Below are positions 3,113 through 7,317 of a DNA stretch of 64,000 nucleotides, one piece after another (positions within the stretch are counted from its first letter, which is position 1; every line of letters begins with the position of its first letter). Source of the DNA: Planctomycetaceae bacterium (GTDB lineage Bacteria; Planctomycetota; Planctomycetia; Pirellulales; Pirellulaceae); NCBI GenBank assembly GCA_018660825.1, contig JABJJO010000152.1, forward strand, positions 1 through 64,000. The letters are read 5' to 3'. The translations under genes and the position numbers were made by a program. The notes below the pieces were generated by a model that did no database searches, was not told where the DNA came from, and saw nothing but the letters and a program-made list of their open reading frames with translations.

Positions 3113-3631
3113 ATGACTAATCTTAATCCAGCACCACAACTGTCCTTGAAAACACATGACGGTACCGTTGTTGAATTGTCCCAGTACTGGGAAAAAATGT
3201 CCGCTGCTTTTTATTTCACACGACACTTGGGCTGAGTCTTCTGTCGTGAGCAGATGGTCGATCTGCAAAATAACCTTGATGATTTTCAGGCAGCCAACAT
3301 CCAACCAGTCGTGTTCGTGATGGGAACCCCAGTGCAAGCGGCTCCACTTGTCGAAAAATATCAACTTACTATTCCGGTTCTTTGTGACCCACAACAAGAA
3401 GCATACAAGGCTTACAACATCCCTCAGGGAACACCATTACAATATCTGGGGTGGCGGGTTTGGTTGCCAGGACTACGAGCGATGTTTCGTGGCGGTATTG
3501 GAAAACCCATTGGCGATGTAACTCAAATGCATGGTACCATTCTTGTTAACACAGACGGAAACATCCAAACCGCGTTTACAGCGAAAAACTCGTCTCACTA
3601 CCCTAGCCTCGCCGACATCACGACGACTTAA
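3113..3631 (+). CDS. Peroxiredoxin-like selenoprotein (UGA read as Sec41)
   Basis: Read through an in-frame TGA at 3233-3235, this gene gives a 172-residue thioredoxin-fold protein of the AhpC/TSA-like Prx-like2 (FAM213/SelL-related) family. The frame is open from ATG 3113 to the TGA (40 codons) and from the TGA to the stop at 3629-3631. The residues around it read FTRHLG-U-VFCREQ, where the family has F.RH.GC.FCRE, so the TGA sits exactly at the first Cys of the CxxC redox motif and the partner Cys44 is kept (TGT 3242-3244). Downstream the family features continue (PVLCDPQQEAYKAYN, GTILVNTDG, HYPSL). A SECIS-like hairpin follows the codon. A nonsense mutation or a base error is the alternative, but it would not explain the hairpin. 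The protein probably acts as a cytosolic thiol/selenol oxidoreductase. It lies 63 bases after the SDR gene. Confidence 0.85.
3250..3266 (+). promoter_or_regulatory. Putative bacterial SECIS element
   Basis: A perfect 6-bp stem (GCAGAT at 3250-3255 with ATCTGC at 3261-3266) closes a five-base loop GGTCG (3256-3260). The stem starts 14 bases after the in-frame TGA (3233-3235) and the loop guanines fall 21-22 bases after it. In the E. coli fdhF SECIS, as I recall it, a GGUCU loop sits at a nearly identical distance. SelB binds such a loop to bring Sec-tRNA to the ribosome. The element lies inside the coding sequence, as is normal in bacteria, and encodes EQMVDLQ. Confidence 0.8.
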
Positions 3632-5766: not shown

Positions 5767-7317
5767 ATGATTCGTTGCTTTATTATCTTATTGTTGTTTC
5801 CATCATTAGTGTCCGCTATTGAGATCGATGTCTTGTTAACCAACGGCACCATCTACGACGGGAAATCTCTCGAGAACCGTATAGGAGACATTGCAATTAA
5901 CAATGGTAAAATCATTGACCTCGCAAAAAACAAAACGGTGACCGCAAAGTTAGTCATCGATTGCACGGGCAAGATCATATGCCCTGGTTTTATTGATTTA
6001 CATAATCACAGCGATAACCAAGTCGTTGCTGCAGCCACGCGCGCCAACATAAACTATCTACTCCAAGGATGCACGACCATCGTGACTGGCAATTGTGGAT
6101 CAGGGCCCGTTAACGTCGACAAGTATTACACCGAGATAAACCAAGCTGGCAGCGGTACAAACGTTATCCATCTCCTCGCACAAGGAAGTTTGCGAAGACA
6201 AGTCATGGGCAGCGAACGCCGCAAGGCAACATCAGCGGAACAAGCAGCAATGTTGGAACTCGCTGATAAAGCGATGAGCGCTGGTGCCTGGGGTATGTCG
6301 ACTGGCCTCATCTATGTACCAAGTTCATACGCCGACACAGCAGAAATCACAGCCATTGCAGCCGTCGTCGCCAAATACGGTGGCATCTATGCAAGCCATA
6401 TTCGGGGAGAAGGTAGTGGTTTGATCAACAGTGTCAATGAAGCGATGAAAATTGGACGCGATGCCAACCTGCCAGTGCACATATCACACTTTAAATCTAG
6501 CGGCCGCAATAACTGGGGATTAGTGCGTGTGGCTGCCAAGGCCATCCAAGCTGCACGTGATGACGGTCAACAAGTGACTGCGGACCAATATCCCTATCGA
6601 GCTTCCAGTACTTCACTCAGCGCGACAACCATCCCTACTTGGGCTCGGGCCGGAGGCCAGCAAGCCATGATAAAACGATTCGATGATCCTCAGGATGGTA
6701 AGCGCATACGAATGGCAATTCAAGCGAAACTAGACCGAACCGAAGACGGCGCGTCCATTCGGATTGCTCGCTGCTACCAACAAAAATGGGTTGGTAAAAG
6801 CATCGCTCAAATTGCAAAACTAGAAAACACGCCCGCTCTAGAAATTGTTGAGGTGATCGAACGCAATGGTGGTGCGAGTGTGGTGAACTTTAGTATGGAT
6901 CCCGAAGATGTACGCTTTGTGATGAGTCTCCCGTGGGTGGCCACCGCTTCGGACGGTCGAGCTTATTTGCCCGGTGCCGATAAACCACACCCCAGAAGCT
7001 ATGGCACATTTCCTCGCAAAATCAGCCTCTTTGCACAACAAGAAAAAATCATCTCTGTTGGACATGCTATTCGCAGTGCAACCGGACTGCCTGCTGAGAT
7101 CCTAGGGCTTAAAGATCGTGGCACACTAAAACCAAATATGGTGGCCGATATAGTCGTTTATGATCCGACGACACTACAGGACAAAGCGACGTTTGATGAC
7201 CCTCATCAATACTGCGTAGGCATCGAATATGTGTTTATTGGTGGTGAACTTGCCGTGTACCGAGGTCGACCAACAGGTGCTCTACACGGGCACGCACTAA
7301 AAAAACCGCCTCGCTAA
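5767..7317 (+). CDS. Exported N-acyl-D-amino-acid deacylase (D-aminoacylase family)
   Basis: A 516-residue amidohydrolase with a signal peptide (MIRCFIILLLFPSLVSA). It cleaves the acyl group from N-acyl-D-amino acids if it follows its family. Metal-site signatures are the HxH motif at H79/H81 (GFIDLHNHSD), a Cys in the TGNCGSG loop (C110, the ligand that is special to D-aminoacylases), His in YASHIRGEG and VHISHFKSSG, and the catalytic Asp in ATASDG. HPRSYGTFPR near the C-terminus is also family-typical. The frame is open further upstream to 5689, but the signal peptide fixes the start at 5767. The product probably works in the periplasm on peptidoglycan- or detritus-derived D-amino acids. 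Confidence 0.9.
   Translation: MIRCFIILLLFPSLVSAIEIDVLLTNGTIYDGKSLENRIGDIAINNGKIIDLAKNKTVTAKLVIDCTGKIICPGFIDLHNHSDNQVVAAATRANINYLLQGCTTIVTGNCGSGPVNVDKYYTEINQAGSGTNVIHLLAQGSLRRQVMGSERRKATSAEQAAMLELADKAMSAGAWGMSTGLIYVPSSYADTAEITAIAAVVAKYGGIYASHIRGEGSGLINSVNEAMKIGRDANLPVHISHFKSSGRNNWGLVRVAAKAIQAARDDGQQVTADQYPYRASSTSLSATTIPTWARAGGQQAMIKRFDDPQDGKRIRMAIQAKLDRTEDGASIRIARCYQQKWVGKSIAQIAKLENTPALEIVEVIERNGGASVVNFSMDPEDVRFVMSLPWVATASDGRAYLPGADKPHPRSYGTFPRKISLFAQQEKIISVGHAIRSATGLPAEILGLKDRGTLKPNMVADIVVYDPTTLQDKATFDDPHQYCVGIEYVFIGGELAVYRGRPTGALHGHALKKPPR

Follow-up and report, generated by a model that had tools for sequence, protein, structure and literature searches.

Peroxiredoxin-like selenoproteins with a UxxC motif are a known family (PMC2398784; PMC13188914), and selenoproteins of planctomycetes are already known as well (PMC4807772). 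The current model of the bacterial SECIS comprises an apical loop of 3–9 nt, a stem of 4–16 bp, a G among the first two loop bases, a distance of 16–37 nt between the UGA codon and the apical loop, and a minimum free energy of at most -7.5 kcal/mol (PMC13188914). In the fdhF SECIS of Escherichia coli, the GGUC of the apical loop lies at +19 to +22 after the UGA, as checked in the E. coli sequence collection. This element also has an extended lower stem and a bulged U17 that is needed for SelB. Here we describe a member of the SelL/Prx-like UxxC family from an uncultured member of the Pirellulaceae, no description of which was found in the literature, together with a hairpin that is almost certainly a bacterial-type SECIS within the coding region of the gene. 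The gene lies within a stretch of 64,000 nucleotides (contig JABJJO010000152.1, positions 1 to 64,000), hereinafter the window; positions refer to its forward strand, on which all features of the gene and the hairpin are located.

The Selenoprotein Gene and Its Predicted Product

The open reading frame at 3113–3631, translated with TGA as selenocysteine (Sec), encodes a protein of 172 aa that is identified by profile matches and homologs as a SelL-related redox protein (AhpC/TSA, thioredoxin fold). The in-frame UGA (3233–3235) is almost certainly read as Sec at residue 41, the position of the catalytic Cys in the Cys-containing homologs, and opens a UVFC motif (residues 41–44), the Cys of which (TGT, 3242–3244) is the invariant column C44 of alignment A1. 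With C replacing U, the protein matches NF040769 of NCBIfam (SelL-related redox protein) at 122.1 bits, near the limit set by the cut-off of 120, and with the stop left in, as in the genome search, the score is 113.2 bits. The match to PF00578 (AhpC-TSA) has an E-value of 2.4e-18, same-genus homologs are 52–53% identical along the frame, and a search of PDB sequences found no relative at E 0.001. The protein shares with the SelL/Prx-like UxxC selenoproteins (NF040769; PMC2398784) the AhpC/TSA fold, a U-x-x-C motif whose Sec takes the position of the catalytic Cys, and the side-by-side occurrence of Sec and Cys forms; it has a single Sec, in contrast to some Prx-like 2 sequences, for which UxxU has been reported. 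Family membership and the UxxC motif point to a redox role. The present analysis settles how the gene is to be read; a standard annotation would probably end it at the UGA or begin it at the internal ATG at 3254.

The Selenocysteine Machinery

The genome to which the window belongs (221 contigs, 96.6% complete) encodes the whole Sec machinery: SelB (C22:37577; 371 bits, full ORF of 676 aa), SelA (C22:39619; 535 bits), tRNA-Sec (C22:29322–29417, i.e., L009:1501–1596; 63.9 bits with the Rfam model, anticodon loop CUUCAAA) and SelD (C110:40163–41083, L092; 349 bits, with an in-frame TGA). The tRNA-Sec gene is found by Rfam and missed by ARAGORN.

Of the 31 genomes that encode the Sec form, 26 yield a selA hit above the cut-off. 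The remaining genomes (G352, G224, G345, G330 and G336) were searched for tRNA-Sec together with G356, and it scored over the cut-off in all six and in none of the six same-family Cys genomes tested. SelA is present in some other Cys genomes, as expected if these encode other selenoproteins. Separately, SelA-like genes (E 1e-42 to 1e-83) were observed in genomes of Pirellulaceae that encode the Cys form (G035, G055, G005, G075, G292, G090, G016, G027, G051, G230, G031 and G083), with no tRNA-Sec over the cut-off in any of the six tested among these carriers; these genes are perhaps SelA paralogs with another role.

The Hairpin Downstream of the UGA Codon

The UGA is followed by a 14-nt spacer (3236–3249), the 5' arm GCAGAT (3250–3255), the apical loop GGUCG (GGTCG in DNA; 3256–3260) and the 3' arm ATCTGC (3261–3266). 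The resulting stem is an uninterrupted 6 bp preceded directly by an A, the distance from the UGA to the loop is 20 nt, and GGUC spans +21 to +24. The initial annotation, which delimited the element at 3233–3266 and thereby took in the UGA and the spacer as well, had described a perfect six-pair stem 14 nt past the UGA with GGUC at 21–24, and direct reading of the sequence confirms this observation to the base.

All features of the hairpin lie within the bacterial SECIS model, with a loop of 5 nt, a stem of 6 bp, a G in the loop start and 20 nt from the UGA. The energy is near the limit, the 48-nt stretch folding at -8.4 kcal/mol, just barely below -7.5, and the bare 17-mer at -6.9. Furthermore, there is an in-frame Sec UGA upstream, inside the coding region, a Sec machinery in the genome, and conservation of the hairpin confined to the Sec forms (see below). 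With the fdhF SECIS of E. coli the element shares GGUC in the apical loop and a SelB-dependent system in the genome; however, its loop starts at +21 rather than +19, i.e., 2 nt further from the UGA, and it has neither the extended lower stem nor a bulged U below the upper stem. The hairpin had originally been said nearly to match fdhF, described as having GGUCU at 19–23, and this likeness holds to within 2 nt, the last U of that string being the closing base. The hairpin therefore belongs to the bacterial SECIS as broadly modeled but lies outside the strict fdhF type, and it is well supported as a further example of an already known kind of element.

Taken as a single sequence, the hairpin is suggestive, and it is the comparative evidence that is decisive. 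The folding energy of the 48-nt stretch does not differ from that of shuffled sequences (z = -0.04), and single-sequence folding was dropped as a weak proof. A perfect 6-bp stem in the exact register follows only one of the 2353 TGA triplets of the window, the one at 3233, and a Watson-Crick-perfect SECIS-like stem in any allowed register follows 0.5% of them. It had also been pointed out that the amino acids of this stretch could be encoded in many other ways; this is correct, but the stem arises in 2.6% of random synonymous recodings with the amino acids fixed, so that the argument contributes no more than a roughly 40-fold factor. The Rfam scan of the window yielded no family at the gathering score. 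A covariance model of the element, which was built with the 3233 site itself included, scores this site at 47.8 bits in its own genome, the next candidate reaching 18.3 bits; four of the other candidates were inspected and have broken frames.

Hairpin Conservation in Sec and Cys Homologs

The search for homologs covered 397 genomes of the class and found forms read through one TGA as well as forms without it. Among the loci fetched, the column of Sec 41 holds TGA in 32 (30 distinct) and TGC or TGT in 24 others. A separate scan of named genomes, the pattern of which had Cys at the Sec site and could detect Cys forms only, showed that one Cys-form relative from the same taxonomic family is Blastopirellula marina.

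At least five of the six pairs are present in the register of the window in 21 of the 30 distinct Sec homologs, and all six in 18. Among the 24 Cys homologs, none has five pairs and the maximum is four, so that the equally stable hairpin in Cys-containing relatives, proposed at the outset as a refutation, is absent. The mean number of pairs is 5.07 for the Sec set versus 2.1 for the Cys set, and in a scan of all 6-bp registers, this one (start at 18, loop of 5) is the best paired in the Sec set, with no comparable register in the Cys set. We denote this geometry class A (stem columns 18–23/29–34, G as loop base 2); the spacer between the UGA and the stem has the same length in all class A homologs, and the second loop base (column 25, position 3257) is G in 17 of 17 aligned class A sequences. 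Within the genus, the stems include GCAGAT-GGTTC-ATCTGC and GCAGAT-GGTCA-ATCTGC; both arms are identical at a protein identity of 52–67% downstream of the UGA, although synonymous substitution is close to saturated (dS either exceeds 2 or cannot be computed). Beyond the genus, the stem recurs with other sequences, e.g., GCACGT-GGTCG-ACGTGC, ACACCT-CGTCG-AGGTGT and CCACCT-CGGCG-AGGTGG.

Across 25 distinct Sec rows, 87.3% of the cells are paired, with 19 two-sided changes distributed over four of the six pairs. The covariation score of the Sec rows is 0.370, compared with 0.131 ± 0.032 in shuffles (0 of 500 reach it) and 0.042–0.119 when the partner is slid; in the Cys rows 35.4% of the cells are paired and the score, 0.083, is under that of their own shuffles. 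Unprompted, RNAalifold returns exactly the 3250–3266 helix from the Sec rows. In the protein tree, class A rows fall in separate parts, such that four changes are needed, and the Cys rows L037, L038 and L040, nested beside the Sec rows L041 and L023, lack the stem. Hence the presence of the hairpin follows the Sec codon and not the gene.

These observations bear on an alternative in which the TGA simply terminates translation, either as a normal stop codon or as a nonsense mutation of a gene in decay, and the hairpin arose by chance. The unexceptional folding energy would fit such a scenario, and a downstream reading frame could begin at the ATG at 3254. Nevertheless, TGA occupies the equivalent site in homologs of several families with the protein constrained on both sides of it, the hairpin covaries, and the genome has the complete Sec machinery, all of which makes this explanation very improbable. 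Conversely, the Sec-restricted stem, the compensatory changes and the complete machinery bear out the original proposal that the hairpin supports Sec insertion.

Another explanation is that the hairpin is no RNA signal and is kept only as a by-product of the conservation of amino acids, given that a small number of recurring residues (E-Q/H-M/V/L-V/G-D/E-L/V) encode the stem. This possibility was addressed with a synonymous null, in which codons were drawn at random among synonyms according to the usage of each gene (2000 trials). In the Sec set, the encoded residues by themselves yield 3.6–4.0 of the 6 pairs, above the approximately 2 of the Cys set, which speaks in favor of this explanation. 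However, the observed 5.07 pairs compare with 3.95 ± 0.14 under the null (maximum over the 2000 trials, 4.40), an excess of about 8 standard deviations, and 18 perfect stems are observed versus 2.4 expected (null maximum, 8), whereas the Cys set agrees with its own null. Moreover, two-sided changes preserve the pairs, and a raised null is just what a constraint of the RNA on the amino acids would produce. Conservation of the protein as the sole cause is thus highly unlikely; rather, because the null of the Sec set is raised, the data suggest that the RNA also steers the choice of amino acids in the stem region.

A role in transcription termination, attenuation or mRNA stability, which any stable stem past a stop codon could have, is exceedingly improbable given that there is no U-run 3' of the stem (CAAAAUAACC), that the hairpin sits within a conserved frame and that it tracks the Sec codon and not the gene.

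Under the SECIS interpretation, and by analogy with SelB and the SECIS of E. coli, we infer that SelB binds the hairpin and that Sec is inserted at 3233–3235. SelB with Sec-tRNA-Sec would bind the stem-loop via the apical loop, with its invariant G as the second base, and would deliver selenocysteine to the ribosome halted at the UGA; the ribosome would then go on through the opened hairpin to the TAA at 3629–3631. The predicted product is the 172-aa thioredoxin-fold protein related to SelL, with U-x-x-C as its active site. Drawn from one bacterial class, the homologs analyzed here constitute a compact set of a single protein in its Sec and Cys versions, in which the bacterial SECIS can be read from covariation instead of single folds.

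Other Hairpin Geometries

Of the 30 distinct Sec homologs, nine do not form the helix at the position seen in the window: three carry another helix in a shifted register, and the remaining six none that fits the model. The Sec clade of L054, L055, L070 and L075 (support 100/98) forms only 4–5 pairs in the register of the window and has, shifted 5 nt downstream, a perfect and strongly covarying stem capped by an AGUU loop. This second geometry, class B (stem columns 23–28/33–38, with the AGUU loop at a distance of 25 nt from the UGA), is also found in a likely second selenoprotein gene of the same genome, which encodes HEAT-like repeats and a redoxin domain with the motif YGDTUPVC (L079:358–1476; G000:C206, TGA at 6104) and in which the hairpin TCGCGC-AGTT-GCGTGA follows the TGA. 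In the class B clade and this gene together, 30 of 30 cells are paired, and three pairs show two-sided changes.

The selD gene of the same genome is likewise a likely selenoprotein gene, with its in-frame TGA in CAGUAGK. Its hairpin, ATTGCACA-GGT-TGTGCAGT, represents a third geometry, with a GGU loop approximately 32–35 nt past the TGA.

Six Sec rows of a single genus (L057, L061, L064, L068, L071 and L076) and two single rows (L053 and L077) have no conforming hairpin, in agreement with the remark in a review that the model does not cover every bacterial SECIS (PMC13188914). The genomes of these eight rows have selA or tRNA-Sec.

In our estimation, there is about an even chance that the SECIS moved within one family, from class A to class B in one clade, that the three geometries of the genome studied here are presumably read by one SelB, and that a few Sec homologs decode UGA without a conforming hairpin. 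The shift between the two registers offers a natural test of the freedom that SelB allows.
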